This document shows positions 1 through 58,915 of a stretch of 64,000 nt of DNA, one piece after another. The DNA is from Haliclona indistincta (taxonomy: Eukaryota; Porifera; Demospongiae; Haplosclerida; Chalinidae): NCBI GenBank assembly GCA_964017065.1, contig OZ024784.1:1920598-1984597 (forward strand), written 5' to 3'. Every line of letters begins with the position of its first letter. The stretch's first letter is position 1. The notes below the pieces were generated by a model, which did not search any database, was not told the DNA's origin, and saw only the letters and a program-made list of their open reading frames with translations. Made by a program: the position numbers and the translations under genes.

Positions 1-573
1 TCTGTCCAGAGTGAACTGGTAGATCAGCACATGTTATATTATTCATTGTCTGTGTTAATGTGCTCTGGCTAACACATGTTGGTTGAGTGTAGTTCTCAGG
101 AGCCAGTAGAGTGAACACATTGCTCCTCATCAGAGGCTGGTCAGGATCAGCTGTTGTGTTGATCACCTGACACCAGTACTTGCCAAGATAGCTGGGGTTG
201 TACTGCTGGTTGATAAAGTCACTGTTATGATATCTTGAGAACCAGTGCATGCTTCCTAGTGATCTATCAGGATCACCAAGTCCCAGGTCCTCTACTGCTC
301 CAGCTGTGTTCTCTCTGAACCATCGTATTTCAAACTCATTAGTTTGATTCCTCACAGTACAGTCCAGTGTTATTGTAATGAATCCATTTTGATAAGGATT
401 ACAGCAGTTTAATGTAGTAGAAGGAGGTTGCCATGTGTACTCAAACATACACTGACCTGTGACAATAGAAAGTTATTGTCAAACTAAATTCACTAGACCA
501 TCTCACCTGAACAACACTGATTAAGCAGGCATAATATCATCTGTAAACTGATAGCTATGTGGTGGGACTCCAT
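1..573 (-). CDS. IgR1: single-Ig receptor, 5' part only (runs off left edge)
   Basis: Exon 1 (507-573) encodes a signal peptide beginning MESHHIAISLQ and ending CCSG at a phase-1 GTGAG donor. Exon 2 (from 456 leftward off the edge) encodes a V-like Ig domain: N-terminal Cys in QCMFEY, B-strand Cys, IRWFRENT Trp, then YNPSYLGKYWCQV with the F-strand Cys, followed by the conserved LLAPENYTQPTC. Its stalk and later exons lie outside the window. The exon-1 family (here SP-A) is shared with IgR5, 7, 12, 16 and 20. The reading frame is open as far as visible. The likely role is a cell-surface receptor; the ligand is unknown. Confidence 0.8.
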
Positions 574-593
574 TGATACTACAGTTGTGTGTA

Positions 594-1082
594 TTTTAGG
601 ACGAAATGATGCACTGCTAATGCATGTACTTAGTGTTTATTTATGCACTCAAACTGAATGATAACATCCAAAATATACAACAAAGCATTGATCATTGTAA
701 GTGTGAAGTCTGTCGTTTCACATATGACTTATAGTGATTCTTTCCTCAAGAAGGAAAGCTACTGCTGATACTTTACCTTGTCCTTGTGCTCTCACCTCTG
801 TTACAGTTTTTCTGCTCCCAAGTGCTCTTCATATTGCATTTGTCCTTTCAGTTATTGCAAATTTGTCAATATTTTGTACAATTTTCTGCGTATTTTACAG
901 ACGATGGCTTCAGTTAGTCACTGCTAATATCAATGATTTATGTACACTATAAACATTATCAGAGAAGCAGAGCACAAAGCAATCAGCTAGTCTCTGTACT
1001 GTGTATTTTGGTCTATACACTACAATACCAATCTAAGACTGTCCAGTATCTATATTCTATGATTACATTGTAGTCTGCAAAT
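594..1082. other. Repeated intergenic block downstream of IgR2
   Basis: No gene seen. This block recurs between the same kinds of receptor genes at about 13655-13995, 31865-32370 and 38080-38550, showing that IgR1/2, IgR5/6, IgR12/13 and IgR16/17 are copies of one segment. It probably holds the promoter of the right-hand gene's left neighbour boundary and the 3' UTR of IgR2, but no motif is decisive. Confidence 0.6.
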
Positions 1083-3024: not shown

Positions 3025-3330
3025 CAGGGCCGGCGGAACAGGCCCGGCAGACCCGGCAACCGCCGGACCAACATTTCGGCAAAGCTGATTGATAATTATT
3101 CATAAACAATTGCAAAGGGGCGGAGTCATACGCAATAAATATGAATATTAATGAGCTGCCGGTCCATTCAAAATGAATCCGGCTATCCGTCGGGATGCCC
3201 CTACGACATCACCATGACAACCATAAGCGCATGCGCACTCCACACAAAATTGACTTTAAAATAAAACTAACGCGCGGCCGCGGAACGTGAACTCTACGCG
3301 AGCAATGCTGTAGCACTGCATGCAGTTACT

Positions 3331-6300
3331 ATGGAACTCACTGCCTTGGATTCAGAGTTTTTTAGCAATCAATTGCTAATCACTACTCCTCCACTGAATT
3401 CTGGAATAAACGAGCCTGAATCGCTTTCAGAGACAGAACAATGCAAAGATCAAGAAATACCAGGGGTACTACTGTGCATGCAATTGTAACAACAAATCAA
3501 CAAATCTCTCATGCAGTCTAGTACCAGTCAGAGTGGTCCAAAGCAGTTTAACTGTACCATGTGCTCTAAAGGCTACAGCAGAAAGACAAAACTTAACTGC
3601 CACATGGAAGAAGCTCATGGAGTCAAAAGTCAACAGCTTTGGAGATTCCAATGCCCTCAGTGTAGTGAGAGGAAACCCTTCAGAACGCTCACTGCTATGA
3701 TGGCACATTGTAATGAGTGTCACCAAGTTGAATTCGGTATGAACAGTATAATGTTTTTCTCGAATGATTATCGATATACAATACTACTAGGCATTCAAAA
3801 TCATGACTTTCAATCACTGAAAGCGTTCATGGTCTGGAAAGAGCAAGAAGAGGAGAGTACACACACATTTTACACTCTTCATGATAAGCCACACAGGTTT
3901 TCCTCATGTGAATCTCCAAACGGTGATTGTAAACTAAATAGTACATGCCACATTATCATGAGTATGTCATTACTATAATAGATCCGAAGGTGCGTTACTA
4001 CTATGTTTGCTGCCGTGATGGTTCCTATCGGTCATCAAAAAAGAAGCGACAAACAGCAGAGACAAGGCCACATCAGAAACAAAGCCGTAAAATTGGAGAT
4101 GTTTGCATTTCAAGAATGTACGTTACAGAACTACAATCTGGAGCAGTGCAAGTAATGTACGTGTCGGCTCATTCAAACCATGAGACAGGAGAGAAGGAGG
4201 ATGCTTTCATACCACTGCCTACAAGTTCTAAAGAGAACATAGCCATGAAGATTAGTATTGGAATTCCAATTGAGCGAATTATGGAAGGTTGTAAATGCAC
4301 TTCTGAACCTCTGAACATGTCTTAATTATTTTTATTTAGATTTTCGTGAAGACATAGCTCATCGCACTCGTAGAAAGTCATTCTCTGAAAATGTTACTAG
4401 GAAGCACCTTGTAACAAGAAGGGACATTCTAAACATTAAGACTAGAGTGCAAGACCAGGCTATCATCAAGCACCAAGATGATGCAACCTCAGTGATGTTG
4501 GCAGTAGCAGAGCTTCAGCAAGAAGACTTCAACCCTGTTCTCTACTTCAAGCAACAGCATGTGGTGGATGAACAATACCCACAGTTCAGCAGAGAAGCAT
4601 TTCTGCTAATGTTTCAGTCAGAATTTCAGCAGCAGATGTATGTGCGTTTTGCTTCTAAAATTCTATGTATCGATTCCACACATGGCACAAATGCATACAA
4701 GTTCAAGCTACTGACAGCAATGGTTGCTGATGACTTTGCTGCTGGTAAGAACATCTGTTCATGTCTAGTGTTGGTATGTATGCATGTGCCTAGCAAGATG
4801 TCTGCACACATGGACAACTGTTATGTGCAGGTGCAAGTAATAATATTATACTTGAAACAAAAAACCTGTTAAGATTTGTCTTTACAAACTAAACTTGTGT
4901 GCAGGTCAACCAATTGCCTGGTGCATTACTGACAGAGAAGATCAGGATGTTGTGCAATTGTTTCTGCTGCTTGTTCAACAAAGGTCACCTAGTGTGGAAG
5001 TGAAAGTAATCATGACAGATGATGGTAAGCTCATGTTTACAAGATATGTAACAATATTATCATGAATATCTATACCAAAGACAACACTGGATGGAACTCT
5101 GCACAGCAGGTATATGGACAAGATGTTAAGCATTTGCTTTGTCTTTGGCATGTTGACAAGTGAGTATGTATCTAGAGTATCAATTCTTTAACACACAAGC
5201 AACTGTGCATGTAGAGCATGGAGAAGAAATGTCCTCTCAAAAGTCTCTTCAAGTAACCAGCTCGAAGTATATCAAATGTTGTGTGTACTTGAGAGTGAAC
5301 TAGATGAGAAAAAGTTCTTAACCATGTCTGACAACTTTATTCAGCGATGGAATCAGACTGAGACCGACTTTGTGATCTACATGCAAAGTAACTACTTCAA
5401 CAGACCAGGTAAGCATGCATAAACAAATTATTCTCTGGTCTTCAGCAGAATGTACAGAGAAATGGGCTAAATGCTACAGAAAATTTGAACATGCGGACAC
5501 AGACACAAATATGTATCTAGAAAGGTTAATCACATTTTTGACAATCTTAATGTTTCAATGTGCTGTAGCTTTCATAACAAGTTGAAAACATCCTACCTCA
5601 ATGGTAAGGTGAACAGGCGGGTGGATGTGCTTCTTGAAGTGTTACTAAAGATTGAGCATGATCAGTATTTCCAGTATGAGATGAAACATCGCCTACAACA
5701 GCAAAACAAGATAGTGAAGAGGGATCATTGTCGGCACAAACGTGGGATGAGTATTCCTTGCTCAAAAGTTGAGGTACTATTAATTTTTAGAGCATGAGCT
5801 GGTTAGATAATGTACGTGCAACCTGTAGGTTGTCAATGAAAATGAATGGCACATACCGAGTCAGTCTGGAACCAATAAGTCAGGATACACAGTCTGCAGA
5901 GTGTCAATGATGTGTCCTGAGACCAACTGCACCATGAAGTGTGTATCTCCAGAATGTGGAAGTCTGTGTTACCATAATACAATTGCGACAGTTTATGCTA
6001 CGACTACACAAATGGACACATATGCAAACACCTGCACAGAGTCCACTCAATGAGAGAAGCCACCACAGAGGTCGGGACAGAAGCAATGGTCAGCACAGAG
6101 GGTGGTGTAGAAACAGCATCATATTATCTACCACAAAAAAACGGAATGTCATCTTCAGGTTTGATTTATACACTATTCTGCATACAGACACTACACTGTA
6201 CACTACAGGTACACAAGCACAGCGTGAGATAGCCACATCCCTTTTAAATAAGCTACAAACAACTTTGACTGATGAAAGCAATGCTTTGAATTCTGTATTA

Positions 6301-7687: not shown

Positions 7688-9612
7688 TCATTGTGGAATA
7701 GCGTAGGTGTGTTCCTCTCTACTAGTAGGGTCTACAATGGCGTACTCCTTGTCTCCTATCTTCACTGAGGGTGCTCCTTTCTTCCCAGCACTAGTGCAGG
7801 GTGTGGTGTACATACTGGTGTAGTCAGTGGTAACAGTGTCCAGTGGTTGGTAGTGGGAGCTCTGCTGGTCATCATTGTGAGTGTGTGGTGGGTTAACATC
7901 AAAATAGTGAGGATTCCAATATTGTGGATCTTTAGTCATTTGATAATCTACCAAATTAATCGATACAAACGCAATAAAATACCATTCTTACTTCCTATTT
8001 TTTCTTACCTGTGGATGGTGCTCCATCATTGCTATCCTTTTTATCATTTCCCTTGGTTTGGTTAGCTAGATTCACAACACTGTAGATCACTTCAGGTTTC
8101 TGTTTTTGTTGCTTTTCAATAGTAATGGGGATCTCATAAGCATGTGGATTGCTAGAACCACTATCTATTACGGCTAAATTCCTGAATGTACACATACAAC
8201 AAAATAGCAAGTATTGGATACTGATATCATTACTCACTGTAGTGAGGCAGTGTTGACATGGTAACCATCTACACAAAATGTATATAATAATGTATAAGCA
8301 TTGTATACGTACTTCTCTAGCTGACAGATATAATATCACTAACCATTATCTTTGCTCGTAGAGTAGCTTTGTCCCTTCTTCTTCCTCCTCCTCCTCTGGT
8401 GTATCACTATCAGTATTACAATCAGTGATAAGCAGACAATGAGTAGTAGAACTACTGCACACACTCCTACTACTGATCCAATGATAGGTGCTTCATTGGG
8501 ACGTGTCACTGAGCTTGAGATAGTTGGATTAGTGTCTGATACAGACAGATATGTAGTTTGCAATGTGTCCACTGTAGTATTAGTCGGCTGAGTAGACACA
8601 TGAGGTATTGTCAACAGTTTGGTAGTTGAGATAGTCGAGAGTGAGGGTTTTATCAGTGCTACTGTTGTAGTTTGATCAATTTCAGTGGTAGACACAAGTA
8701 TTGATAGTGAGAGTGAGTGTGAGGATTGCAATGGCACTGTAGTTGATACTGCAGTTGCTAAAAGTGATACATGTCATGAAGTCAGCAATAGAGTGAAGTT
8801 AGTTATAAGAATTCTGAGCTGGAATTTAAGGATTAATAGAGAATATCTATTCTTACCTACACATTCTTTTAGACAGTTTGTTGAACAACAGTATTTTACT
8901 GACACATATGAACTCAGTGTAGTGGTAGGAGCAGGTAATGTAGTGGTAGGAGCAGGTAATGTAGTGGTAGGAGCAGGTAATGTAGTGGTAGGAGCAGGTA
9001 ATGTAGTGGTAGGAGCAGGTAGTGTAGTGGTAGGATCAGGCAATGTAGTCTGTTCAGAGTGAACTGGTAGATCAGCACATGTTATATTAATCATTGTCTG
9101 TGTTACTGTGCTCTGGTTAACACATGTTGGTTGAGTGTAGTTCTCAGGAGCCAGTAGAGTGAACACATTGCTCCTCATCAGAGGCTGGTCAGGATCAGCT
9201 GTTGTGTTGATCACCTGACACCAGTACTTGCCGAGATAGCTGGGGTTGTACAGCTGGCTGAAAAAACCATGATACCTAGACAACCAATGCATGTTTCCTG
9301 AGATGAAGTCTTCATTGTAGCCAAGTCCCAGGTCCTCTACTGCTCCAGTTGTGTTCTCTCTGAACCATCGTATTTCAAACTCATTAGTTTGATACCTCAC
9401 AACACAGTCCATCACTATTGTCCGATATGATTGTAAGGATTACAGCTGTTTAATGTAGTTGAAGGAGGTTGTTGAGTGTACTCATACATACACTGACCTG
9501 TGGTTGGCTATAAATTGTCAATAGCAACAACTGTACAGATTAGCTCACCTGAGCAATACTGAGCAATCTTGTCAAATATCAACAGTAAGGTGACAATGTG
9601 ATGAGACTCCAT
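7688..9612 (-). pseudogene. IgR3: single-Ig receptor, TM-A, tail II, frameshifted Ig exon
   Basis: Exons: 9549-9612 (SP-D), 8857-9497 (Ig and stalk), 8344-8757 (Ser/Thr-rich stem plus TM-A), 8238-8268 (mini-exon DGYHVNTASLQ), 8009-8181 (tail part with VIYSVV) and 7688-7947 (tail II distal part with PHYFDV, SHYQPL, DYTSMY, KEYAIV, HTYAIP). Exon 2 is 641 nt; it lacks the same 7 nt as IgR2, which breaks the frame, although the structurally matching IgR18 is intact. The stalk has six 21-bp units (LPAPTTT, 8925-9047). Its proximal tail exon is of the tail-I kind but is joined to the tail-II distal exon, a hybrid shared with IgR7 and IgR18. Confidence 0.75.
8925..9047 (-). repeat. 21-bp stalk minisatellite, about 6 copies
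   Basis: In-frame tandem copies encode LP(A/D)PTTT in the receptor stalk of IgR3, a likely O-glycosylated Thr/Pro stem. Most paralogs have one unit at this place. Confidence 0.9.
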
Positions 9613-10337: not shown

Positions 10338-11711
10338 TCATTGTGGAATAGCGTAGGTGTGTTCCTCTCTTCTAGTAGGGTCTGCAATGGCGTACTCCTT
10401 GTCTCCTATCTTCACTGAGGGTGCTCCTTTCTTCCCAGCACTAGTGCAGGGTGTGGTGTACATACTGGTGTAGTCAGTGGTATCAGTGTCCAGTGGTTGG
10501 TAGTGGGAGCTCTGCTGGTCATCATTGTGAGTGTGTGGTGGGTTAACATCAAAATAGTGAGGATTCCAATATTGTGGATCTTCAGTCATTTAATGATCTG
10601 CTGGAACATAATTGCAAACAAGATACAGTACAGTACACAGTAAAATACCATTCAGTGTTTCTTACTATTTCTGTAGATTCTACCTTTCTTTCTGAAGAAC
10701 TAGATATGTTACATATAATTTTAAAGTAGTTGTCTTTATTGTTGCTCACTTCTGATGTTTGTTATTCTGGGTTTGCTTTGCTGTAATTGATGATTCTAAT
10801 ACAGTTATGTAAATATTATTGCTTTATGCTAACCTCTTTTCTTTATTCTTTGTCTCTTTACTAGTAACAGTATGATAGTAACTGATATTACACTGACAAT
10901 AACAATGACAGCACTCAATACAGCTGCTACTGGATACACTATGAGCAATCCACTTGCTGTTGGACTAGCTGGAGAGATAGTGGAGGAGGTGATATTTGTA
11001 ACATAACTACCTGAAGTAGCATTAGTTAGTGAAAGACCAGTCATTGAACTGCATGTATACTTACCTTCTGTAGAGCTGTCTTGCATTTTGCAGCTTGATT
11101 TGTCCAATGAACTCAGTGTAGTGGTAGGAGCAGGTAATGTGGTCTGTTCAGAGTGAACTGGTAGATCAGCGCATGTTATATTATTCATTGTATGTGTTAC
11201 TGTGTTCTGGCTAACACATGTTGGTTGAGTGTAGTTCTCAGGAGCCAGTAGAGTGAACACATTGCTCCTCATCAGAAGCTGGTCAGGATCAGCTGTTGTG
11301 TTGATCACCTGACACCAGTACTTGCCGAGATAGCTGGGGTTGTACTGCTGGTTGCTAAAGTTCTTTCCATGATACTGTGAGAACCAATGCATGCTTCCTT
11401 GTGATCTATTAGGGTCACCAAGTCCCAGGCCCTCTACTGCTCCAGTTGTGTTCTCTCTGAACCATCGTATCTCAAACTCATTAGTTTGATGTCTCACATT
11501 ACACTCCAGTACTATTGCAATGAGTCCACTATGATAAGGATTACAGCAGTTTAGTGTAGTAGAAGGAGGTTGCTGTGTGTACTCAAACATACACTGACCT
11601 GCCAACAGGAGACCATTAATAAGAGCAGCTACAGAGCAACTCACCTGAACAACACAAATAATAGAGATGTAGTATCATCATTGTACTGAAAGCAGTGTAT
11701 TGAGACTCCAT
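10338..11711 (-). CDS. IgR4: single-Ig receptor, TM-B, tail II apparently out of frame
   Basis: Exons: 11645-11711 (signal peptide, MESQYTAFST type, SP-B), 11065-11598 (Ig and stalk), 10834-11010 (TM-B, hydrophobic from LLIVYPVAAVLSAVIVIV into the KRQRIKKRG stop-transfer), 10666-10691 (mini-exon) and 10338-10597 (tail II). The Ig and TM frames are open. The mini-exon is 26 nt instead of 30 (4-nt deletion), and the tail exon then meets a stop after four codons; skipping the mini-exon also gives an early stop. IgR4 is therefore predicted to be membrane-anchored but nearly tail-less. A GTAAG donor at 11060-11064 defines a 54-nt intron that other paralogs read as coding. Confidence 0.7.
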
Positions 11712-12017: not shown

Positions 12018-13646
12018 TCATTGTGGAATAGTGTAGGTGTGTTCCTCTCTTCTAGTAGGGTCTACAATGGCGTACTCCTTGTCTCCTATCTTCACAGAGG
12101 GTGCTCCTTTCTTCCCAGCACTAGTGCAGGGTGTGGTGTACATACTGGTGTAGTCAGTGGTAACAGTGTCCAGTGGTTGGTAGTGGGAGCTCTGCTGGTC
12201 ATCATTGTGAGTGTGTGGCGGGTTAACATCAAAATAGTGAGGATTCCAATATTGTGGATCTTTAGTCATTTGATGATCTGCTGGAACATAATTGCAAACA
12301 AGATACAAGTACAGTACACAGTAAAATACCATTCAGTGTTTCTTACTGATTATTTCTGTAGATTCTACCTTTCTTTCTGAAGAACTAGATATGTTTGCAT
12401 ACAATTTTAAATTATTAATTTTGTCTTTATTGTTGCTCACTTCCGATGTTTGTTTCTCTGTGTTTGTTTTGCTGTAATTGATGATCCTTAAAATTATTGT
12501 GTAATATTATTGCTTTATGCTAACCTCTTTTCTTTAGTCTTTGTCTCTTTAATAGTAACAGAATGATAGTAACTGATATTACACTGACAATAACAATGAC
12601 AGCACTCAATACAGCTGCTACTGGATACACTATGAACAATACACTTGCTGCTGGACTAGCTGGAGAGATAGTGGAGGAGGTGATATTTGTAACTTATTAC
12701 ATAGTACGTCATCATGTTATTGCGCTCACAGTGATGAACTATGTAATAAATCATTTATTGCCCTACACAACTCGGGCATTAACCGACATTAATGACCTCG
12801 GGAAAGTCGGTTGCCCTCGTACAGTCTCGGGCTGCGCCCTTGACCGTAACTCGGGCAACCGACTTTCCCGCGGTCATTAATGTCGATTATTGTCCTCGTG
12901 TGAGGGCAATAACTAATACATAACTACCTGAAGTAGCATTAATAGTTAGTGAAAGACTCATACACTTTGCCATTGAACTGCATGTATACTTAGCTTCTGT
13001 AGGACTGTCTGATATTTTGCAGCTTAAATTGTCCAATGAACTTAGTGTAGTGGCAGGAGCATTTAATGTGGTCTCTTCAAAGTGAACTGGTAGATCAGCA
13101 CATGTTATATTCTCCATTGTCTGTGTTGTTGTGCTCTGGTTAGCACATGTTGGTTGAGTGTAGTTCTCAGGAGCCAGTAGAGTGAACACATTGCTCCTCA
13201 TCAGAGGCTGGTCAGGATCAGCTGTTGTGTTGATCACCTGACACCAGTACTTGCCGAGATAGCTGGGGTTGTACTGCTGGTTTAATAAACCATAATACCT
13301 TGACAGCCAATGTGTGTTTCCCGAGTTCAAGCTATCATTGTAGCCAAGTCCCAGGTCCTCTACTGCTCCAGTTGTGTTATCTCTGAACCATCGTATTTCA
13401 AACTCATTAGTTTGATGCCTCACAACACAATCTATTACTATAAAAATGTGACAATTAAATTGGTAAGGATTACAGTTGCTTAATGTAGTAGAAGAAGGTT
13501 GCCGTGTGTACTCAAACATACACTGACCTGTGATATAATAGAAAGTTATTGTCAAACTAAATTCACTAGACCATCTCACCTGAACAACACTGATTAAGCA
13601 GACATAATATCATCTGTAAACTGATAGCGATGTGATGAGACCCCAT
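12018..13646 (-). CDS. IgR5: receptor cut off before its membrane segment by a MITE
   Basis: Exon 1 13580-13646 (SP-A variant starting MGSHH) and the Ig exon, open from 13527 down to a stop at 12887-12889. The usual exon 2/3 donor is mutated (CTAAG instead of GTAAG), so translation runs through the 54-nt-type segment into GSYV and then into the inserted MITE, where it stops. The predicted product is a signal peptide plus Ig domain plus short stalk with no membrane anchor, i.e. secreted. Downstream TM-B (12525-12693), mini-exon (12347-12376) and tail II (12018-12277) remain in the DNA with intact frames but are uncoupled. It could be a soluble form or a recent pseudogene. Confidence 0.7.
12694..12919. 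mobile_element. Two adjacent hairpin MITEs inserted in the IgR5 TM-B exon
   Basis: Comparison with IgR4, 9, 12 and 16 shows a 226-bp insertion between GTAAC and ATAACTACC. It contains a short hairpin (TTATTACATAGT at 12694-12705 against ACTATGTAATAA at 12738-12749) and a longer foldback from TTATTGCCC (12755) to GGGCAATAA (12912) with arms of about 60 bp. Confidence 0.8.
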
Positions 13647-29790: not shown

Positions 29791-29857
29791 TAATTATACT
29801 TTCTAATCTCAACAGTCACTAATTAGTTGTTATCACACTAGTCTTGTCAGTATATTA

Positions 29858-33959: not shown

Positions 33960-34129
33960 TTGAGCAAGCTATGAACAGAAAATCGATCACTGTTTACTCC
34001 CTCGATAAAGCTCTATGTACAACAATGAAAATTAATTTCCATTCAGACGCATCACCTTTTCTTGCAGTGGTACCCTCGGGATTACTAACAACTGTATACA
34101 TGTGAGCAATGTAACCACCATTTAGCTAC

Positions 34130-36421: not shown

Positions 36422-36746
36422 TGATCCTGTCGATCTGGACAGCTTCAGAGTATACGTAATCCCAAAGTAAGTCGGACACTGTTTATACTATATTATTGTG
36501 TTTGTTTACTCATTCATGTTGCTCCATGTACACTACAGCACAACTTGCAACGATAATGAAGATAAACACTCAAACTTCGAAAATCTTCATTCATACATGC
36601 ATGCACTTTTAGTGAAGATTCTCATGAATAAGCAACAAAACATTTTGTACAATTTAATTTCTAATCTCAACAGTCACTATGTTATTATCATACTAGTCTT
36701 GTCAGTAAATTATCATTGTGGAATAGTGTAGGTGTGTTATTCTCTT
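36422..36746. other. Intergenic spacer between IgR15 and IgR16
   Basis: Copy of 11712-12017. No gene seen. Confidence 0.45.
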
Positions 36747-46778: not shown

Positions 46779-47406
46779 TGATACAGACGTGATGTAAGTC
46801 ACTGTGCAAGTGTTTATTTATCTACAATAAAGCTTTATGTACAAAACTACAATAGCATCCAAAAATAAACAAAAGCATACAATACAAGCGGTAACCGCTT
46901 GAAATTTTGATCCAAGCAATTTTTTTTACATATGCATAAAACTTGAATGGTGGAAAATTTTGTCTTAAGGATTAGCATGACTGTTATTGCAATTATCATT
47001 GCCACTCGGCAATGATATGTAGCGATGATACTGATAATAGTTGCCATTTGATATTGTAGAGTGCTAGTCATTCTGTCTACAAAAGTAAGTGCTATTGCTA
47101 TGGTTTTTTTATTCAGAGTAGAATACCACACTAACAATTTTTTTTGTCAAGCTCTCTCAAAATAATTTCCTTTGTTATAGTTTTTCTGACTCTCTATCAT
47201 CTTTGCTTTGGAGTCACTGCTTATAATTAATGATTTATGATATAAGTACACTACAATTAAACAGTATCAGACATACACAGTTACTTCTATACAGTCAGCA
47301 GCTATGTGACTAATTCAAACACATTACAAATCAAAGACAGTTCAGTGTTGTTAGCTATAACAATATTATGAAGTAGTCTGCAAAATTAAGAATTATCTTC
47401 AAACGG
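46779..47406. other. Intergenic spacer between IgR20 and IgR21
   Basis: Copy of 17856-18458, including the AAGCGGTAACCGCTT palindrome. No gene seen. Confidence 0.5.
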
Positions 47407-48914
47407 CTAATTGTAAATATCAATCTTTATCTTAGAATACTGTCCATCACTATCAGTATCATCTCTTTGTAGTGACTGCTGATCATCATGAGTTGTAGCT
47501 GACAGCTGCACCTGATGGTTGAGAGAGCTGTACTGGTGATCCAACCCTCCAACACATCCTGTCATGTACACTGGATTGTCTAGTGTGGGTGGTGCCTCAC
47601 TGGTACCAGGAGATGGTACTCCATCTTTGTCATCCTTGTTGTCGATTCTCTTGGTTTTGTTAGCTAGATTCACAACACTGTAGACCATTTCAGATCTCTG
47701 CTGTTGTTGGTTTTCACTACTAATGGGCATCTCGTAAGCACGTGGGTTGCTAGAATCACTATCCATTACGGCAGATGATTCTAAAATTCTGTATGTACAC
47801 ATACAATGAAATGAGCAGTAGTGAATGCATATGCTAATACTTACTGTAGTGGAGCAATGTTGACATTGTAACCATCTACACAAAATGTATAAACATTTTC
47901 TGTACTTCACTGGATGACTGTATTATTCACTAACCAGTATCTTCGCTGGTAGTGTAGCTTTGTCCCTTCTTCTTCTTCCTCCTCCTCTGGTGTATCACTA
48001 TCAGTATTACAATCAGTGATGAGCAGACAATGAGTAGTAGAACTACTGCACACACTGCTACTACTGATACTAGTATGATCATAGGTGCTTCCCTAGGTAT
48101 CACTGAGCTTGATGAGGTAGTTGGGACTACTGCAGTCATGGTCAAATAAGGTAGTGATAAAGTTGAGTCGAAGTGTCCTAAAGACTGAGACACTAGTGTA
48201 GAAATCGAGTCTGGTAGTTGAGATAGTTCCACTGCGATGGTTGAATTTATACTATAAGTAAGACAATATTCACCTGTTGTTGTCACTGTTTCAGATTTCT
48301 CTAAGCTCACATACGAACTCAGTGTAGTGGTAGGAGCAGGTAATGTAGTCTGTTCAGAGTGAACTGGTAGATCAGCACATGTTATATTATTCATTGTCTG
48401 TATTGTTGTGCTCTGGTTAACACATGTTGGTTGAGTGTAGTTCTCAGGAGCCAGTAGAGTGAACACATTGCTCCTCATCAGAGGCTGGTCAGGATCAGCT
48501 GTCGTGTTGATCACCTGACACCAGTACTTTCCGAGATAGCTGGGGTTGTACTGCTTGTTAAAAAGGTTGTTTCTTGAGTACCACTGCATGTTCTGCTGGG
48601 ACTGATTAGGGTCACCAAGTCCCAGATCCTCTACTGCTCCAGTTGTGTTCTCTCTGAACCATTGTATTTCAAAATCATCAGTTTGATACCTCACAATACA
48701 GTCTATCACTATTGTAATGTATCCATCTTGATAAGGATTACAGCAGTTTTGTGTAGTAGAGCGAGGTTGCTGTGTGTACTCAATCGTACACTGACCTATC
48801 AGAAGCAATATATGTTTATGCAATTTAGCAGGCCAGCTCACCTGAAGAGCACTGATCAAAAAGACACAATACTGCAAGTACCAGTAAGCTGATAAAAATG
48901 TGGCAAAACCCCAT
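47407..48914 (-). CDS. IgR21: intact single-Ig receptor, TM-A, tail I
   Basis: Exons: 48842-48914 (signal peptide MGFCHIFISLLV, SP-E), 48274-48795 (Ig and stalk), 47935-48231 (stem plus TM-A), 47845-47875 (mini-exon) and 47407-47788 (tail I). Total 1305 nt, 434 aa. The intron between exons 2 and 3 is only 42 bp and its frame is open, so it may be retained; in IgR23 the same intron contains a stop, which supports splicing. The tail ends at TAG in place of the usual Gln codon, dropping the last six residues but no tyrosine motif except none of the four core sites. Confidence 0.8.
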
Positions 48915-49019: not shown

Positions 49020-49288
49020 CATCTCAAATGTTTATTCACTAATATTTATCATATCAGATTATCTATTGATGTTTTTTCCCATTTCTTTGTCTCTACTGAC
49101 TTGTATATAGCCTTAGCAACAATCTCTTCTCCCATACACATCTCCACTGTGTTCTTTACTGGAACTCCCCTTGATAGAATATCCACAAACTCTTGCATCT
49201 GGCGCTGAAACGAGCCACCATATCCTCCGAGAGATTCAAAAGATTCAAAAGTGGATACTTGTCATTAAATGTGTATCACAATGTCACC

Positions 49289-49324
<36 letters not shown>

Positions 49325-49390
49325 GTGAGTGTGTGAGTGAGTGAGTGAGTGAGTGAGTGAGTGAGTGAGTGAGTGAGTGAGTGAGTGAGG
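49020..49390 (-). pseudogene. Relic of the Gfo/Idh/MocA 3' exon with its intron microsatellite (copy 2)
   Basis: 49020-49285 matches the last exon of the oxidoreductase gene (51540-51824) with substitutions and a duplicated AAAAGATTC; the splice acceptor side is followed by the same (GA)n and (GAGT)n run found in that gene's last intron. No other exons. The microsatellite (about 49292-49388) runs directly into the IgR22 fragment. Confidence 0.88.
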
Positions 49391-49397
49391 AAGGGAG

Positions 49398-49641
49398 ACT
49401 CACAGAACACTCCAGTGTTATTGTAATGAATCCATTTTGATCAATAGGATTACAGCAGTTTAGTGTAGTAGAAGGAGGTTGCCGTCTGTACTCAAACATA
49501 CACTGACCTGCTAACAGAAGACATTATAATAAGAGCAACAATAATATTCATAATAATTTTACAGACCAACTCACCTGAACAATACCAATTCAAGAGATGT
49601 AGTATCACCATTGTACTGAAAGCAGTGTATTGAGACTCCAT
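49398..49641 (-). pseudogene. IgR22: signal exon and first part of Ig exon only
   Basis: Exon 1 49575-49641 (SP-B, MESQYTAFST) and about 110 nt of the Ig exon (to ITITLECS), which then ends in the GAGT microsatellite. The join looks like a recombination product between a receptor exon and the oxidoreductase intron repeat. Confidence 0.88.
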
Positions 49642-49883: not shown

Positions 49884-51429
49884 CTAATAATTATCTTCAA
49901 TAGGCTGATGGTAAATATCAATCTTTATCTTAGAATACTGTCCATCACTATCAGTATCATCTCTTTGTAGTGACTGCTGATCATCATGAGTGGTAGCTGA
50001 CAGCTGCACCTGATGGTTGAGAGAGCTGTACTGGTGATCCAACCCTCCAACACATCCTGTCATGTACACTGGATTATCTAGTGTGGGTGGTGCCTCACTG
50101 ATACCAGGAGATAGTACTCCATCTTTGTCATCCCTGTTGTCGATTCTCTTGGTTTTGTTAGCTAGATTCACAACACTGTAGACCATTTCAGATTTCTGTT
50201 TTTGTTGCTTTTCACTAGTAATGGGCATCTTGTAAGCATGTGGGTTGCTAGAATCACTATCCATTATGGCAGATGATTCTAAAATTCTGTATGTACACAT
50301 ACAATGAAATGAGCAGTAGTGAATGCATATGCTAATACTCACTGTAGTGGAGCAATGTTGACATTGTAACCATCTACACAAAATAATGTATAAACATTTT
50401 CTGTACTTCACACACTGGATGACTGTATTATTCACTGACCATTATCTTTGCTGGGAGAGTAATTTTTTGCCTTCTTCCTCCTCCTCTGGTGTATCACTAT
50501 CAGTATTACAATCAGTGATGAGCAGACAATGAGTAGTAGAACTACTGCACACACTCCTACTACTGATACTAGTATGATCATAGGTGCTTCACTAGGTATC
50601 ACCGTGGTTGAGGTAGTTGGGACTACTGCAGTCATGGTCAAATAAGGTAGTGATAAAGTTGAGTCGAAGTGTCCTAAAGACTGAGACACTAGTGTAGAAG
50701 TCGAGTCTGGTAGTTGAGATAGTACCACTGTGATAGTTGAATTTATACTTTAAGTCTAAAGGCTAAGACAATATTCACCTGTTGTTATCACTGTTTCAGA
50801 TCTTTCTAAGCTCACATATGAACTCAGTGTAGTGGTAGGAGCAGGTAATGTGGTCTTTTCAGAGTGAACTGGTAGATCAGCACATGTTTCATCATCCATT
50901 GTCTGTACTGTTGTGCTCTGGCTAACACATGTTGGTTGAGTGTAGTTCTCAGGAGCCAGTAGAGTGAACACATTGCTCCTCATCAGAGGCTGGTCAGGAT
51001 CAGCTGTTGTGTTGATCACCTGACACCAGTACTTGCCGAGATAGCTGGGGTTGTACAGCTGATGTTCGAAGTCACTGTTATGATATCTTGAATACCAATT
51101 TGTGTTTCCAAGATCTTGTAACCTTGGTTCACCAAGTCCCAGGTCCTCTACTGCTCCAGATGTGTTCTCTCTGAACCATCGTATCCCAAACTCATAGATA
51201 GACTGATTTCTCACAATACAGTCTATAACTATTCTAATTTTATTATTTTGATAAGGATTACAATTATTTTTTGTGGTAGAGGGAGGTTGCCGTGTGTACT
51301 TAAACATGCACTGACCTATTAGCAGTAAAACGCTAGTGATGTAATTCACCAGACCGGCTCACCTGAACAGCACTGACCAAACAGACAAAATATTGTTAGT
51401 AAGCTGATAACGCAGTGACAAATCGCCAT
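49884..51429 (-). CDS. IgR23: intact single-Ig receptor, TM-A, tail I
   Basis: Exons: 51363-51429 (signal peptide MAICHCVISL, SP-E), 50779-51315 (Ig and stalk), 50440-50727 (stem plus TM-A), 50343-50373 (mini-exon) and 49884-50286 (tail I). Total 1326 nt, 441 aa. The intron between exons 2 and 3 is 51 bp and contains a stop, so splicing there is required. The Ig variable segment (GEPRLQDLGNTNWYSRYHNS) differs strongly from the others. Tail: MVYSVV, NPVYMTG, HQYSSL, GQYSKI. It lies immediately downstream (leftward) of the oxidoreductase gene. Confidence 0.83.
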
Positions 51430-51551: not shown

Positions 51552-51824
51552 CTAGTATCCAATCAGATTCTCTAGTGATGTTTTTTCCCATTTCTTTGTC
51601 TCTACTGACTTGTATATGGCCTTAGCAACCATCACTTCTCCCATACACATCTCCACTGTGTTCTTTACTGGAACTCCCTTTGATAGAATATCCACAAACT
51701 CTTGCATCTGGCGCTGAAACGAGCCACCATATCCTCCGAGAGATTCAAAAGTCTTGCCCTCGGGATACTTTTCATTACGGAGAGTCATTCCACCATAAAA
51801 ACTACCGTGTATTGCAATCTCACC

Positions 51825-51861
<37 letters not shown>

Positions 51862-53030
51862 AGTGAATGAGTGGGTGGGTGAGTAAGTGAGTGAGTGAGG
51901 GAAAATGACTGTAAAGACTCATATTAACTTGCACTGGAGTGATCCTGTATAGCACTCAGTTACAAGTCAGACAGTCGACTGTATCAATGCCGTTGCTTAC
52001 CTTAGTACCAAACACTTGGAAGAAAGGTAGCTGGGTCATTGGTATGTTCATGTAATGACAGTACAGAGATCCTGTCCTTCCATCCTTGAACCTGATCAAT
52101 GCGTTCGATAGTGACTCTCCATCAAATGGAGTGTAGGGATACCCTACTGTACCTATCACCTCATCTACCTCACCCATCCTGTGGTTGAACAATCAAATCG
52201 TGATAATCATTATCTGGTTGTTACTGACCATATTCTCAATGGTCTGATCCAGTGGGTCGCCCCTTGCATTAGAGTACCACCTCCTGCTTTAGCTGACTCA
52301 AAGGTCCAGTGATGCTCATTGTTTGCATATGTGAGACCTTCAAACACACCTTCTGGCCTGCAATAATGACACAATAAAATATAATTTTATAAGGTCAAAA
52401 GAATGCAAACATACCATGCTAGTCCTGGTCCCTCAAAGTAGTTAGCACATGCATAATACACTTTCCCAATCTCTCCCTCCTCGATCAGCTGTGATGCCTT
52501 CTGTACCTGCACACAGACGGACAGAGCATTAATTATCGTTTCAATTGTCCTGAGCGCGTATTACCTCAGGCCAGAACATGGAATTCTCTGCAACCACTAG
52601 CAGTTGCTTGCTCTTCTCTGCAACTGCTAGCAGTCTCTTGGCAGATTCAAGGGTGTGTGTGACTGGCTTCTCTACCAGCACATGTTTCCCAGCCTCAAGA
52701 CACTTGATAGCATGCTCCTCGTGGAGGTTATGAGGTGTCATGACTATTGCTACATCAAACAAACCACTGGCCAGTGCTTCGTCCAGACTAGTGAAGATCT
52801 TACAGTGAAAGAACACTACATGATTGCAGAGCTATAGTTGCTGATTTTAGGCTAACTTGACACGATTCTCCATTCTCAATATTCTTTCTCGTTTTCTCAG
52901 CTGCCTCTCTGTCAATATCCACCAGTGCTGTTATGAGGCAGGTTGGCGTTGCTGCCTGTAGACCGCGCAGATGACAGTTCACTATAGTCCCACATCCAAT
53001 TAGACCAAAGCGAAGGCGTGCTGCAGCCAT
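51552..53030 (-). CDS. Gfo/Idh/MocA-family NAD(P)-dependent oxidoreductase
   Basis: Six exons: 52857-53030, 52565-52798, 52415-52506, 52229-52357, 52001-52178 and 51552-51824; total 1080 nt, 359 aa, all phases consistent. The N-terminus has a Rossmann FGLIGCGTI dinucleotide-binding motif and VDID after the second strand; VLVEKPVTHT is the family EKP motif; the C-terminal part has the mixed-sheet dimerisation domain (GGGTLMQGATHWI with the active-site-region His). Length is typical. An upstream in-frame ATG at 53108 would add 26 residues; MAAARLRF at 53030 is preferred because it places the Rossmann fold near the start. Substrate unknown (trans-dihydrodiol or sugar dehydrogenases are relatives). 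Base composition fits its neighbours. It is single-copy apart from two 3' relics. Confidence 0.88.
51828..51900. repeat. (GA)n/(GAGT)n microsatellite in oxidoreductase last intron
   Basis: Purine-rich simple repeat; its expanded copy is at 49292-49388 beside the second relic. Confidence 0.9.
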
Positions 53031-53163
53031 TCCATCCAGCGATTTATTAGCCACACCCACATCACCTTTGCAACGTGCTGCGATGATATAAGCTGGTGGA
53101 CTCATCATTCAAAATTTAATATTTGAGATATTTGCAGCTCTTATAGTGTGATTGTTTTCTTCT

Positions 53164-54441
53164 CTAGCTTCTAGTAAGGTCTACAATGGCGTAATCCAGG
53201 TCTCCTATCTTCACTGAGCGTGCTCCTTTCTTCCCAGCACTAGTGCAGGGTGTGGTGTACATACTGGTGTAGTCAGTGGTAACAGTGTCCAATGGTTGGT
53301 AGTGGGAGCTCTGCTGGTCATCATTGTGAGTGTGTGCACGTGGCGGTGGAGATAATATGAGATAATCAACGTAGAGTGGATTCCGAAACTGTGGATCTGT
53401 AATAGCAGTTTGTGTACATGTAGCAAAAAGAGATCGGGTTATAAAAATTCCTTACCTTCACTTTTAATTTTCTTTTTTGTTGCTTCTAAATGATTTTCAG
53501 AAATTGTTTTATTGTGCTCTCGTCGCAGAGATTGCTGCTTTCTTTGTGGTTGATTTCCTGTAGATTGAAAAGAGCATATAAATCCTAACTACTGTCTTTT
53601 ATACCTATGCTATTTCTCTTTCTTCGTCTTCGTACTAGTAACAGAATGATAGTAACTGATATTAGACTGACAATAACAATGACAGCACTCAATACAGCTG
53701 CTACTGGATACACTATGAGCAATACACTTGCTGTTGGACTAGCTGGAGAGAAGATAACAATCCATGTAGAGCTTTACACATAATAAATTCTTATATACCA
53801 GGTGTACAACTGTCCAGTAATTTCCAACAGCTTGATGTAGAATGTGCAGATGTAGGCACAGGCGCAGGTACTGAAGTACTAAGTTCAGAGCAATCCATTA
53901 CACTATGAGCACATGTTATATTGCTCTCCCACTGCACTCCTGAGCATGTTAGATTAGTGTAGTTCTCAGGAGCCAGTAGAGTGAACACATTGCTCTTCAT
54001 CAGAGGCTGGTCAGGATCAGCTGTTGTGTTGATCACCTGACACCAGTACTTGCCGAGATAGCTGGGGTTGTACTGCTGGCTGAAGAAATCACTGTCATGA
54101 TATCTTGAGTACCAATGCATGCCTCCTTGTGAGTTATTAGGAAAACCAAGCCCCAGGTCCTCTACTGCTCCAGTTGTGTTCTCTCTGAACCATCGTATTT
54201 CAAATTCATTAGTTTGATACCTCACAACACATTCCAGCGATGTTTCAATTGTTCCATTGTAGTTATATGGACTACAATGTAGTGTATTAGGTGGTTGACG
54301 TATGTACTCAAGCTTGCAACAACTTCCTAATAGCAAAATAGTAAGTTTAGTATAATTACTACTGTCACAATACAAAACAGACTTGCCTGTACATAGAGCA
54401 ACCAGGCACAGCATTGCCAGTGAAACAATAACGAACTCCAT
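53164..54441 (-). CDS. IgR24: intact divergent single-Ig receptor, TM-B, tail II variant
   Basis: Exons: 54387-54441 (signal peptide MEFVIVSLAMLCLVAL), 53799-54326 (Ig and stalk), 53605-53742 (TM-B), 53456-53557 (a Gln/Arg/Lys-rich juxtamembrane exon) and 53164-53396 (tail II variant). Total 1056 nt, 351 aa; a start 18 nt upstream is possible. Intron 1 has a GC donor (GCAAG). Tail: NPLYVDY, SHYQPL, DYTSMY, LDYAIV; a stop after LTRS removes HTYTIP. The stalk (SVPAPVPTS) differs from the TTTLSS type. It is the first of a divergent group to the right of the oxidoreductase gene. Confidence 0.8.
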
Positions 54442-54684
54442 TAGCTGACCCAGCATCACTGTTTAAAATATCTTTCTGCTATTATATACATCTCACCAAT
54501 TCAATGTAAACTGCTTAAACGACACTCGTGACCAATTAGTACTATAACATAAACTCTGAAGTATTTTAACACTTTTGTTACGTTAAACAAACATTTCATT
54601 ACATCTGGTATGGGTACACTTTGCAAGTCAAAGTACAAGTTAAAGACAAGTACATCATTGTGGAATAGTGTAGGTGTGTTCCTC
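54442..54684. other. Spacer with former end of tail II
   Basis: 54655-54684 still matches the HTYTIPQ end of tail II, now beyond the premature stop of IgR25. Otherwise nothing seen. Confidence 0.5.
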
Positions 54685-55934
54685 TCATCTAGTAGGGTCT
54701 ACAATGGCGTACTCCTTGTCTCCTATCTTCACTGAGGGTGCTCCTTTCTTCCCAGCACTAGTGCAGGGTGTGGTGTACATACTGGTGTAGTCAGTGGTAA
54801 CAGTGTCCAGTGGTTGGTAGTGGGAGCTCTGCTGGTCATCATTGTAAGTGTGTGGCGGTGGAGATAATCTGCAATGATGGTGTTGTTCCACTGTCTGATA
54901 ACAGCCATATCCTATAGATAAGTAAACAAAAGTGCGCTACAATACCAATATTAAAATGCTTCTTGCCTCCATATTGAAGTGCTTCTGTTCTTGTTGTTGC
55001 AGTAGGATTTCGGTCATTTTGTATTGAGCTAAAATGTTGCATATAGTTGTGACAAGTACCTACATGTACAGCATACTCACTGAAGAGTAATTTGGCTTCT
55101 TTGATTTTTGTCTCCTGCAAGGTAATGTAACCAATTGCAGATGAGATTCTTTTACAATATTCAACTCACCACTGTTTTTCTTTCTTAACCTTATAAATAG
55201 AACGACAACTACTGCTATGATACCGACAATAACAATGACAACACTCATCGCAACAGCTATAATGTACACAGTGGGCGCTCCATTCAGAGGTCATATATCT
55301 TACCTACTGTTGTACATTCTGGTGTTCTTGAGCATGAACTCAGTGTAGTGGTAGGAGCAGGTAATGTGGTCTGTTCAGAGTGAACTGGTAGATCAGCACA
55401 AGTTATATTCTCCATTGTCTGTGTTTCAATTTGGTTAACACATGTTGGTTGAGTGTAGTTCTCAGGAGCCAGTAGAGTGAACACATTGCTCCTCATCAGA
55501 GGCTGGTCAGGATCAGCTGTTGTGTTGATCACCTGACACCAGTACTTGCCGAGATAGCTGGGGTTGTACGGCTGGTTGATAAACTTTGCATGATGGTACC
55601 TTGAAAACAGATCCTTACAATATGGAATGACGGGATCACCTAGTCCCAGCTCCTCTACTGCTCCAGCTAAATTCTCTCTGAACCATCGTATTTCAAACTC
55701 ATCTGTTTGATTTGTCACAACACAGTCCAGCACTATTCTGATCAATCCATAATGATTGTAAGGACTACAGTCCTCTAGTGTAGTACTGGGGGGCTGCCGA
55801 ATAAATTCAAACTCGCACTGACCTGTTGAAAGTACATGTATCACAATAATTTTCTAACTGACTGTCTCACCAAAGCACTGACCAGCCAGACACAGCATTG
55901 TCAATAACTTGATAACATTGTCGAGATATTTCAT
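54685..55934 (-). CDS. IgR25: intact divergent single-Ig receptor, TM-B-like, tail II variant
   Basis: Exons: 55871-55934 (signal peptide MKYLDNVIKLLTMLCLAG), 55304-55822 (Ig and stalk), 55170-55256 (TM, AVAMSVVIVIVGIIAVVVVL then RLRKKN), 55081-55114, 54967-55028 and 54685-54911 (tail). Total 993 nt, 330 aa. The intron before the last exon uses a GC donor. The tail has GCYQTV, SHYQPL, DYTSMY and KEYAIV, then TGA in place of the Arg codon after DPTR, losing HTYTIP. The Ig segment GDPVIPYCKDLFSRYH has an extra Cys. Six short exons were joined only by phase agreement, so the 55081-55114 exon is the least certain. Confidence 0.74.
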
Positions 55935-56125
55935 TGCTATTCCAGCTAAGCTACAAACAGAAGAAACTGGAGGAGACACATCTACTAGCGCTGTGCTTTA
56001 TCCATACCATACTTATAGAAAACAGATACTAAAATCATTATTATGTAACCATGTGTAACTGTTGGTAAATGTGTATATGTAGACTAGCAGCAGTAATCCC
56101 TTTATTATTATAATAGTACTGTTCA
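55935..56125. other. Short spacer between IgR25 and IgR26
   Basis: No gene seen; 5' flank of IgR25 and 3' flank of IgR26. Confidence 0.4.
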
Positions 56126-58306
56126 TCATTGTGGAATAGTGTAGGTGTGTTCCTCTCTTCTAGTAGGGTCTACAATGGCGTACTCCTTGTCTCCTATCTT
56201 CACTGAGGGTGCTCCTTTCTTCCCAGCACTAGTGCAGGGTGTGGTGTACATACTGGTGTAGTCAGTGGTAACAGTGTCCAGTGGTTGGTAGTGGGAGCTC
56301 TGCTGGTGAGTGTGTGGTGGTGGAGATGATATGTGATGATCAGCATAGAGTGGATTCTGAAATTGTGGAGTTCCAGTCACATCAGTAGGTTGGTGACCTA
56401 AACAACACATCATTTGTTACAATACACTCTACCCAACTCTTACCTTTATTTTTGAATGTATCTATCATGTCATTGGTCTTCTTTGAACTGCAGAATAAGG
56501 ATACCATATTGTGTCTATATACAATGACAAGCTTACAGAATGATTTGCTGATTTTTTTGAACAGGATTAACTGTCATATAAAGTCAGGCATAAACATTTC
56601 ATTTCTGGTGTTTACCGACCTTTATTTTGACTGTTTCTTCGTTTTCTTAACAGTAGCAGTAGGATTGTAATAGCTACTATACCAGAAACAATAACAATGA
56701 CAGCACTCAATACAGCTGCTACTGGATACACTATGAACAATCCATTTGGGCTAGCTGGAGAGAAAATACTGTAACATATAGTGAGAATAACCTGCATGAT
56801 TACCTGGAGTATAATTAGTTGAAGAAAAAACTGCCTTTGAACTAGTCTGTTCAATACTTGTTGCTACGCTATGTGACGTAATGAAGCAATTTGATTTGTC
56901 AAAGTTCAGCATGTAGTGGTAGGAGCAGGTAATGTAGTGGTAGGAGCAGGTAGTGTAGTGGTAGGAGCAGGTAATGTAGTGATAGGAGCAGGTAGTGTAG
57001 TGATAGGATCAGGTAATGTAGTGATAGGATCAGGTAATGTAGTGATAGGAGCAGGTAATGTAGTGATAGGATCAGGTAGTGTAGTGATAGGATCAGGTAG
57101 TGTAGTGATAGGATCAGGTAATGTAGTGATAGGAGCAGGTAATGTAGTGATAGGAGCAGGTAATGTAGTGATAGGAGCAGGTAGTGTAGTGATAGGATCA
57201 GGTAGTGTAGTGATAGGATCAGGTAATGTAGTGATAGGAGCAGGTAATGTAGTGATAGGAGCAGGTAATGTAGTGATAGGAGCAGGTAGTGTAGTGATAG
57301 GATCAGGTAGTGTAGTGGTAGGAGTAGGTAGTGTAGTGATAGGAGCAGGTAATGTAGTGATAGGAGCAGGTAGTGTAGTGATAGGATCAGGTAGTGTAGT
57401 GGTAGGAGTAGGTAGTGTAGTGATAGGAGCAGGTAGTGTAGTGGTAGGAGTAGGTAGTGTAGTGATAGGAGCAGGTAGTGTAGTGATAGGATCAGGTAGT
57501 GTAGTGGTAGGAGTAGGTAGTGTAGTGATAGGAGCAGGTAGTGTAGTGGTAGGAGCAGGTAGTGTAGTGGTAGGAGTAGGTAGTGTAGTGATAGGAGTAG
57601 GTAGTGTAGTGATAGGAGCAGGTAGTGTAGTGATAGGAGTAGGTAGTGTAGTGATAGGAGCAGGTAGTGTAGTGGTAGGCGCAGGTAGTGTAGTGGTAGG
57701 AGTAGGTAGTGTAGTGATAGGAGCAGGTAGTGTGGTCTGTTCAGAGAGAACTGGTAGATCAGCACATGTTTCATTAATTGTCTCTATTATTGTGCTCTGA
57801 GTAACACATGTTGGTTGAGTGTAGTTCTCAGGAGCCAGTAGAGTGAACACATTGCTCTTCATCAGAGGCTGGTCAGGATCAGCTGTTGTGTTGATCACCT
57901 GACACCAGTACTTGCCGAGATAGCTGGGTTTGTACTGCTGGTGGAAGAAATTACTTTTATGATATCTTGAGTACCAATGCATGCTTCCTAGTGATCCATT
58001 AGGATCACCAAGTCCCAGGTCCTCTACTGCTCCAGTTGTGGTCTCTTTGAACCATCGTATCTCAAACTCAAAAGTTTGATGCCTCACAACACAGTCTATC
58101 ACTATTCCAATGAATCCATTATGATAAGGATTACAGCAGTTTAGTGTAGTAGAGGCAGGTTGCTTTGAGTACTCAAACATGCACTGACCTGTACACAATG
58201 CTAGATTGTTACAACACAAATAAATTCAGCACTCACCCGACCCACACTGAGCAGTCAAGCATAATATAACAATCAGTAAACCAATAATAATGCAGCAAGA
58301 CTCCAT
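56126..58306 (-). CDS. IgR26: single-Ig receptor with giant Thr/Pro repeat stalk, TM-B uncoupled by frameshift
   Basis: Exons: 58237-58306 (signal peptide MESCCIIIGLL), 56804-58188 (Ig plus repeats), 56616-56754 (TM-B), 56444-56487 (mini-exon) and 56126-56397 (tail II with NPLYAD, SHYQPL, DYTSMY, KEYAIV, HTYTIP). The stalk has about 39 copies of a 7-residue unit LP(A/T/D)P(I/T)TT, giving a rod of about 270 residues. Exon 2 is 1385 nt, not a multiple of 3: just after the last repeat the frame ends (TTTC stop), while the following sequence LNFDKSNC is open in another frame and leads correctly into TM-B. The mRNA as read would make a secreted mucin-like Ig protein; a one- or two-base error in the repeat array would restore a full receptor. 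Confidence 0.7.
56916..57736 (-). repeat. 21-bp minisatellite, about 39 copies, encoding the IgR26 stalk
   Basis: Unit consensus on the plus strand GTAGTGATAGGAGCAGGTAAT with A/G variants. Higher-order patterns of units (for example blocks of GATC-, GAGC- and GAGT-type units) recur, as expected for unequal exchange. All frames are open on both strands because no stop occurs in the unit. Confidence 0.93.
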
Positions 58307-58399
58307 TGATCGAATATGAACTACGAAATCTGCTTTGTTCTAATAATTTCACTCCAAAATAATAAGCTGTGATGCTTATTTAAGAACTACAAAAAAAAA

Positions 58400-58915
58400 C
58401 ATTTATGTGGAATAGTGTAGATGTGATTCTCTCTTCTAGTAGGGTTTACAACAGTGTAATCCTGGTCTCCTTATCTTCACTGAAGGTACTACTGTTTCTC
58501 CAGTGTAGAGCATTGAGTACATACTGGTGTAGTCAGTGGTAACAGTGTCCAATGGTTGGTAGTGGGAGCTCTGCAGGTCATCATTGTGAGTGTGTGGTGA
58601 AGATATTGGGTGAACGTCAAAATAGTGCTGATTCCAATAATTTATTGTGAATCTTCTAATGATTTTCTGTAGCAGTTAGTTTGGTGACCTAAGAGCAGAG
58701 TGCATGTTGTTGATCTTTGCAGAGGTTGAAGTGCTTACCGTCAACTTTAAATGTATCATTCTGTTAGAGGAGCAACAATGTCTTTCTATAAATGGTTTAC
58801 TGCAACGAGACATAATTTTTGATTTCTGAAAGTTTCAACAGACCTTTCCTTTTTCTCTTCTTTGTCTCTTTACTAGTAACAGGACGACAGTAACTGATAT
58901 TTCACTGACAATAAC
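58400..58915 (-). pseudogene. IgR27: decayed tail II and TM-B fragments
   Basis: 58400-58660 matches tail II (GSHYQPL and DYTSMY regions recognisable) with frameshifts; 58850-58915 matches the TM-B exon start and then ends. No Ig or signal exon. It marks the right end of the array. Confidence 0.8.

Follow-up and report, generated by a model that had tools for sequence, protein, structure and literature searches.

Tandem immunoglobulin (Ig) receptors with tyrosine tails, accompanied by gene remnants, make up the KIR, LILR and CD300 clusters of vertebrates, and the same combination is found in the locus described here. Among invertebrates, the Alr complex of Hydractinia resembles it in its clustered single-pass members of the Ig superfamily (IgSF), a polymorphic Ig ectodomain, many pseudogenes and very divergent alleles (PMC11067881), and motifs of the immunoreceptor tyrosine-based inhibitory or activation type (ITIM, ITAM) were reported in candidate genes (PMC12065747). 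Alike are also the fester co-receptors (FcoR) of Botryllus with a V-type Ig domain and tyrosine-motif tails (PMC12065747) and, according to reviews, the Geodia receptor tyrosine kinase (RTK) and GSAM, which are sponge surface proteins with Ig domains. The present analysis concerns a cluster of single-Ig receptor genes in a stretch of 64,000 nucleotides, the window (C2:1,920,598-1,984,597), from a genome of 144.03 Mb in 46 contigs.

The mechanisms of invertebrate allorecognition are still termed a "complete mystery" in a 2025 review, which for sponges, cnidarians and ascidians names nothing beyond candidate proteins (PMC12065747). The literature used consists of PMC11067881, PMC11999971, PMC12065747, PMC12018476, PMC5450542, PMC12909245, PMC13119343 and PMC12166358. 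An earlier note, made from the letters of the window, had suggested a possibly undescribed sponge recognition locus; in accordance with this, no tandem single-Ig receptor family of sponges is described in the titles and abstract openings among the open-access matches listed.

Architecture of the receptor cluster

The structure of the locus is genuine and well supported. With an Ig exon, two exons for the membrane span and three for tails as tblastn queries, and with a custom spliced aligner, 34 receptor units were modelled over 75.6 kb (C2:1,903,467-1,979,036), all on the minus strand. The left edge of the cluster lies about 17 kb outside the window, and 26 of the 34 units are inside the window or reach into it. 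The window holds 24 copies of a 57-nt pattern taken from the Ig exon, 16 of them exact and eight with one mismatch; shuffled sequence had none. All 24 copies are on the minus strand like the units themselves, as expected from the single-strand tandem of about 27 receptors in the earlier note. The window has 26 units and additional Ig fragments (near 3.0, 9.9 and 40.4 kb by tblastn), and the whole cluster 34 units. Remnants are present too, as Ig fragments, a membrane-tail remnant and remnant units.

A typical unit comprises a leader exon, a V-type Ig exon, an exon for stalk and membrane span, and the tail. The proposed sharing of intron phases is borne out by a phase 1 first intron in 27/34 models and by phase 1 in both of the first two called introns in 21/34. 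The supposed uniform plan has to give way to four tail classes by best-scoring reference, A (11 models), B (10), C (9) and a B+A hybrid (4), where models 4 and 12 are remnants that the aligner completed by borrowing from the unit that follows, and two tails are therefore counted twice. Tail A is a single exon, tails B and C open with a mini exon of 28-31 nt, and in the hybrids the first half of tail B continues into tail A. The assumption that each gene is complete does not hold: only eight of the 34 models begin with methionine and are free of stops and frameshifts, a number that may shift either way, some breaks being located in the divergent stalk and possibly artefacts of the aligner. The Ig frame is open in 26/34 units, and these entered the codon analysis.

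The stalk is rich in threonine and proline and contains in-frame 21-bp tandem repeats (TTTLPAP-like) at 56912-57733 (about 39 copies), 8918-9049 (about six) and 42027-42118 (about four). Similar repeats were seen in the proteins P0014, P0023 and P0037 of a 76,955-base public contig, and stalk length may therefore differ between haplotypes. In 33/34 models the 19-residue segment of highest hydrophobicity has no charged residue, a choice of segment that itself favours uncharged membrane spans; the sole glutamate occurs in a frameshifted model.

For the Ig exon of unit 22 a V-set beta sandwich was predicted (predicted local distance difference test, pLDDT, 84), which matches V-set domains. The earlier note had called the domain V-like and had named a structure without Ig fold as counter-evidence; the prediction gave the V-set fold. 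In an alignment of 103 rows W45, G91, Y93 and C95 are invariant and C32 is present in at least 90%, corresponding to the B-F cysteines, the tryptophan of strand C and the GxYxC of strand F. The Pfam Ig models remain under their curated cut-offs (PF00047 with 13.4 versus 21.8 bits, PF13927 with 16 versus 30 bits); these sequence models are too distant, and V-set membership is decided by the predicted fold. A sequence search of the PDB gave no relative and one row at chance level, and none was confirmed on viral or prokaryote contigs. KIR and Alr ectodomains are not among the VIA-list matches, which excludes nothing.

The host is probably a sponge, as the earlier note had supposed. One contig (C46) encodes COX1 with two in-frame TGA codons and has a match to ATP-synt_C at 5445-5633, and on these grounds is taken as the mitochondrial genome; a mitochondrial atp9 presumably points to a sponge among animals, and the atp9-like gene of this contig is read in that sense. 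Candidates for silicatein, cysteine-protease reading frames in two of 12 loci (L034, L036), were rejected, having the ordinary active-site cysteine.

Variable and frozen parts of the Ig exon

By protein query, C8 has three further Ig copies (near 6.50 Mb) and C10 has many (0.27-0.31, 0.69-0.71, 0.92-1.06 and 4.90 Mb). In the fetched stretches, which cover C10 in part, the F-G motif occurs in 66 copies, 33 on C2, three on C8 and 30 on C10. Mean entropy (bits, C2+C8/C10) is high in A'-B (1.20/1.46), the BC loop (0.74/1.97), the C''-D loop (1.56/1.87) and DE/E (1.03/0.79), and close to zero in F (0.03/0.03), the FG loop (0.07/0.08) and G (0.07/0.05). The C''-D loop, comparable to complementarity-determining region (CDR) 2 and hypervariable region 4 (HV4), varies in all groups and the BC loop in C10; the equivalent of the antibody CDR3, by its entropy, is the least variable loop. 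These labels are analogies from the strand order of the predicted model.

The conservation extends to silent sites. Among the copies of C2 the proportion of synonymous differences (pS) is about zero in the F-G block (for example 37619-37675 on the minus strand, one of 24 in the window, by motif scan and codon comparison) versus 0.2-0.5 across much of the remainder. Between C2+C8 and C10, windows within the block have a pS of 0.02-0.19; elsewhere it mostly exceeds 0.5, apart from the margins of this block and from a second one (FRENTTGAVEDLG). The same codon is used for the same degenerate amino acid in 10872/12034 cases (90%) in the F-G block, in 5302/5803 in the second block and in 12337/21837 (56.5%) in the remaining exon; these cells are pairs of related, non-independent copies, and the blocks were picked after viewing the windows. 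The comparison includes 49 of the 66 copies, three of them (C10c) belonging to no comparison group; 17 were dropped, among them all five of a subfamily with a diverged block at C10:0.69-0.71 Mb. This frozen F-G cassette is the most surprising part of the locus and was absent from the earlier note.

The likeliest origin of the codon freeze, judged from these patterns, is past gene conversion confined to segments that can be shared harmlessly. On this view the freeze would need no special function, interlocus conversion homogenising F-G while selection keeps other segments apart, which is considered rather probable. It is consistent with a same-codon rate of 0.991 in the F-G block within C2+C8, with the exchange indicated by the pairwise homoplasy index (PHI) test, and with the lack of support for two other causes: an overlapping antisense gene is rejected by the lack of an open frame in 49/49 copies, and RNA structure finds no support in one copy, which folds ordinarily (z 0.01 and -0.96). 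A scan of the window against Rfam gave no hit at the gathering thresholds. Against conversion, two silent positions of the block are fixed differently in C2/C8 and C10, so exchange between C2 and C10 is not current, yet over most of the exon their silent sites have diverged strongly. Alternatively, a constraint at the nucleotide level may act on the F-G block. How the freeze arose is a question separate from receptor function.

The Ig exons are mosaic. For the 26 exons of C2 the PHI statistic (0.516) lies beyond all 300 permutations (lowest 0.524), and segment distances correlate between variable segments 1 and 2 (r 0.47) and 1 and 3 (r 0.56), with r 0.00 between 2 and 3. Inside the fold proper, the ratio of nonsynonymous to synonymous change (dN/dS) rises above 1 in a single window (1.25); it also does so past the domain (1.07-1.71) and in windows with dS near zero. 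Among pairs of low dS, dN and dS are roughly the same in C2+C8, and in the few pairs of C10 dN falls below dS in V1 and exceeds it in V2. Relaxed constraint would account for this pattern, as would weak diversifying selection; clear positive selection is not established by the dN/dS windows or the low-dS pairs.

A public-protein search gave 235 relatives, of which 120 were retrieved. Identities refer to the fetched stretches of the present genome, but a search through all of its contigs revealed no further cluster like that on C2. All 13 Ig proteins of a 382,412-base contig are 99.4-100% identical to the present genome. The best matches of 13 Ig proteins on a 60,592-base contig reach 75.8-92.3%, those of five on the 76,955-base contig 68.8-95.2%. 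These 18 divergent proteins would represent either extreme haplotype divergence or a close sister species. Their F-G block is identical in at least 32/34 positions in 15/18; P0023 and P0040 have 29 and P0015 has 8, the last because a deletion shifts the comparison.

Two side observations concern other Ig copies. At C10:693-707 kb (L023, L024) a diverged Ig subfamily has a different F-G block (IKTSVTPHQPLLRSN). Truncated copies at C2:1918969, C2:1930496 (about 9.9 kb in the window) and C8:6503684 end at the same base after TTCAC and continue in similar sequence, with a GGGTTTAGGGTTT-like stretch after two of them and part of it after the third; they represent one remnant copied between chromosomes.

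Tyrosine tails, units and neighbouring stretches

The modelled tails have 72-174 residues, and two tail reading frames scanned against Pfam contain no known family and no kinase domain. Weaker relatives of tail A are located on C10; matches to tail B, among those listed, are on C2 and C8 only. In 33/33 A-type tails YxxL-x6-Yxx[V/M/I] was found, which is partly a result of their collection by the pattern of this shared stretch, with 6/16 residues free to differ; 27/33 continue to YxIV by eye. The spacing is nearer to ITAM than to ITIM, the strict ITAM Yxx[L/I]-x6-8-Yxx[L/I] occurring in 1/33.

The ITIM-type tails of the earlier note could not be clearly recovered. The consensus [S/I/V/L]xYxx[L/V/I] is matched once in the A reference (equalled in 302/2000 shuffles), not in B and once in C (773/2000). 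As SHYQPL it occurs in 17/33 A-type tails, all on C2 and C8 and not above shuffles; tails of C10 lack the -2 residue. The 22 matches of B/C type consist of VVYSVV (7) and other xxYSVV forms (15). Among 32 tests the lowest shuffle counts belong to Yxx[L/I/V] in tails A (30/2000) and C (8/2000), followed by YxxP in A (42/2000) and YxN in P0069 (27/2000); Yxx[L/I/V] is not rare in B (169/2000) or P0069 (380/2000). Single motifs are mostly unremarkable against shuffled tails, and the better argument for a tail function is conservation across chromosomes and in P0069, which is from another contig. Possible partners are encoded at C9:7648801-7654500 (L046) by two complete, adjacent and intronless SH2-SH2-phosphatase genes of SHP type (577 and 564 residues), and a third SHP-type candidate on C2 has two SH2 matches and, by eye, a phosphatase piece.

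The units are numbered from the right of the window, all on the minus strand and placed by spliced models, in part with tblastn or repeat scans. Uninterrupted models are those of unit 3 (tail B, 49890-51429), unit 8 (hybrid B+A tail, six exons, 40788-42688), unit 13 (tail C, 32401-33959), unit 14 (tail A, including two tiny doubtful exons, 29861-31859), unit 18 (source of the B reference, tail B, 18462-20009) and unit 21 (tail A, 12021-13646). Unit 0 (tail A, 56129-58439) includes the longest stalk repeat, found by repeat scan and tblastn; its modelled leader is doubtful, and by eye a better ATG leader lies near 58306. At 58408-58915 tblastn located the end of a membrane exon with a broken tail A and without Ig exon.

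Interrupted models with tail A are units 1 (54691-56083), 2 (53142-54688), 10 (break near the tail end, 36716-38074), 17 (one frameshift, 20317-21704) and 22 (stop where the tail starts, 10341-11711). Tail B is found in units 5 (single stop close to the end, 47389-48896), 6 (stop in the Ig exon, 45173-46778), 7 (stalk and membrane part interrupted, 43183-44650), 9 (one stalk frameshift, 38558-40183) and 24 (frameshifted Ig, also by tblastn, 1089-2715), and tail C in units 11 (stalk interrupted, 35017-36421), 15 (one stop, no modelled leader, 23731-25135) and 16 (interrupted, weak membrane span, 22026-23431). Hybrid B+A tails belong to units 19 (16286-17855) and 23 (frameshifted Ig, 7691-9612), both also seen by tblastn. 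Remnants are unit 4 (leader and Ig fragment running into a TGAG repeat according to the repeat scan, 49288-49641) and, with tblastn, units 12 (leader and 5' part of the Ig exon, 34100-34680) and 20 (3' part of Ig, membrane span and tail B, 14818-15947). Of unit 25 the leader and Ig exon lie in the window (1-573), the remainder to the left.

A transposon-like stretch is located inside the cluster at about 3.5-6.5 kb. Its open reading frames (ORFs) at 3490-4869 (plus strand) have a C2H2-like finger (PF13894, below cut-off) and an RNase H-like match to ZSWIM1-3 above cut-off (E 6.1e-9), and are probably a DNA transposon. The reverse-transcriptase-like ORF of 261 residues at 26305-27090 is probably a retroelement piece; its match to zf-RVT is weak and stays under the cut-off (E 0.0044). 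Oxidoreductase-like pieces at 51552-53108 resemble by eye a Gfo/Idh-type dehydrogenase and, with a similar piece near 49.1 kb, probably stem from the duplication of a gene fragment unrelated to the receptors. The cluster is bordered on the right by exons (59130-60400, minus strand) similar by eye to the nucleotide-binding half of an ABC transporter, which we take to be of ABCD type. The right end of the window contains short repeats of 15 and 52 bp in a G+C-richer stretch (63004-63579).

Possible functions and comparison with known systems

The genes probably constitute a sponge multigene family of single-pass surface receptors for immune-type recognition. One V-set domain would project on the Thr/Pro-rich stalk, its variable A'-B and C''-D-E stretches binding varied ligands, whether microbes or markers of self type. 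At the frozen F-G edge all members may have one and the same contact, either with a shared partner or among themselves. Ligand binding would lead to phosphorylation of tail tyrosines and recruitment of SH2 proteins. Duplication and loss of genes, together with swaps of short exon segments among the copies, would uphold diversity.

A function as innate receptors for microbes or symbionts, similar to KIR, LILR and CD300 but aimed at microbial non-self, is quite possible. Sponges filter bacteria and house symbionts, and a large family in several clusters with a mosaic variable surface, tyrosine tails and SHP-type partners would suit this task; however, the membrane spans are without the charged residue of activating KIRs. 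In that case an immunoreceptor-like V-domain family with tyrosine tails would exist in an early-branching animal phylum.

Plausible, though slightly less probable, is a polymorphic allorecognition complex like Alr, in which Ig ectodomains compare self types and the tails decide on fusion or rejection. Tandem Ig genes with many broken copies are likewise described for the Alr complex, whose alleles, too, were so divergent that they were missed as alleles (PMC11067881). The divergence of 18/120 public proteins beside the near identity of 13/13 on the 382,412-base contig would be in line with this, but a sister species would produce the same picture. Furthermore, clusters on several chromosomes exceed the need of one locus, and the main text of the Amphimedon graft transcriptome paper contains neither "immunoglobulin" nor "Ig-like". 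The cluster mapped here, with its V-type domains and tyrosine tails, is a concrete and testable candidate for sponge allorecognition.

Homotypic adhesion for cell sorting, with the F-G edge as common adhesive face and no immune role, is unlikely: the edge is nearly invariant across clusters and sponge IgSF proteins are tied mainly to adhesion and intercellular recognition in a review (PMC11999971), but rapid turnover of genes, hypervariable loops and tails of such elaboration would be unusual for housekeeping adhesion. Quite improbable is a histocompatibility-type complex of reversed logic, in which CDR1-like and CDR2/HV4-like surfaces are reshuffled, the F-G cassette, identical to its silent positions, serves as common contact and as homology anchor for cassette swaps, and haplotypes share almost no Ig allele.

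In comparison to Alr the sponge family has one V-type domain with canonical B-F cysteine pair and tryptophan, and its copies share the near-invariant F-G segment, whereas Alr proteins have low overall identity. The FcoRs of Botryllus have a sushi domain and two Ig domains of C2 type in addition, and the canonical ITIM/hemITAM found there is not clearly present in the sponge tails. From KIR, LILR and CD300 the family differs in its uncharged spans, its single stalked V domain and the lack of a relative in the PDB sequence search, and from the Geodia RTK in its tails without kinase in the two reading frames scanned. With PD-1 and the V domains of T-cell receptors and antibodies the identity is 8-20% in the rows shown. 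The loop equivalent to CDR3 is frozen here and variable there, a layout of variable and frozen loops opposite to that of antibodies.

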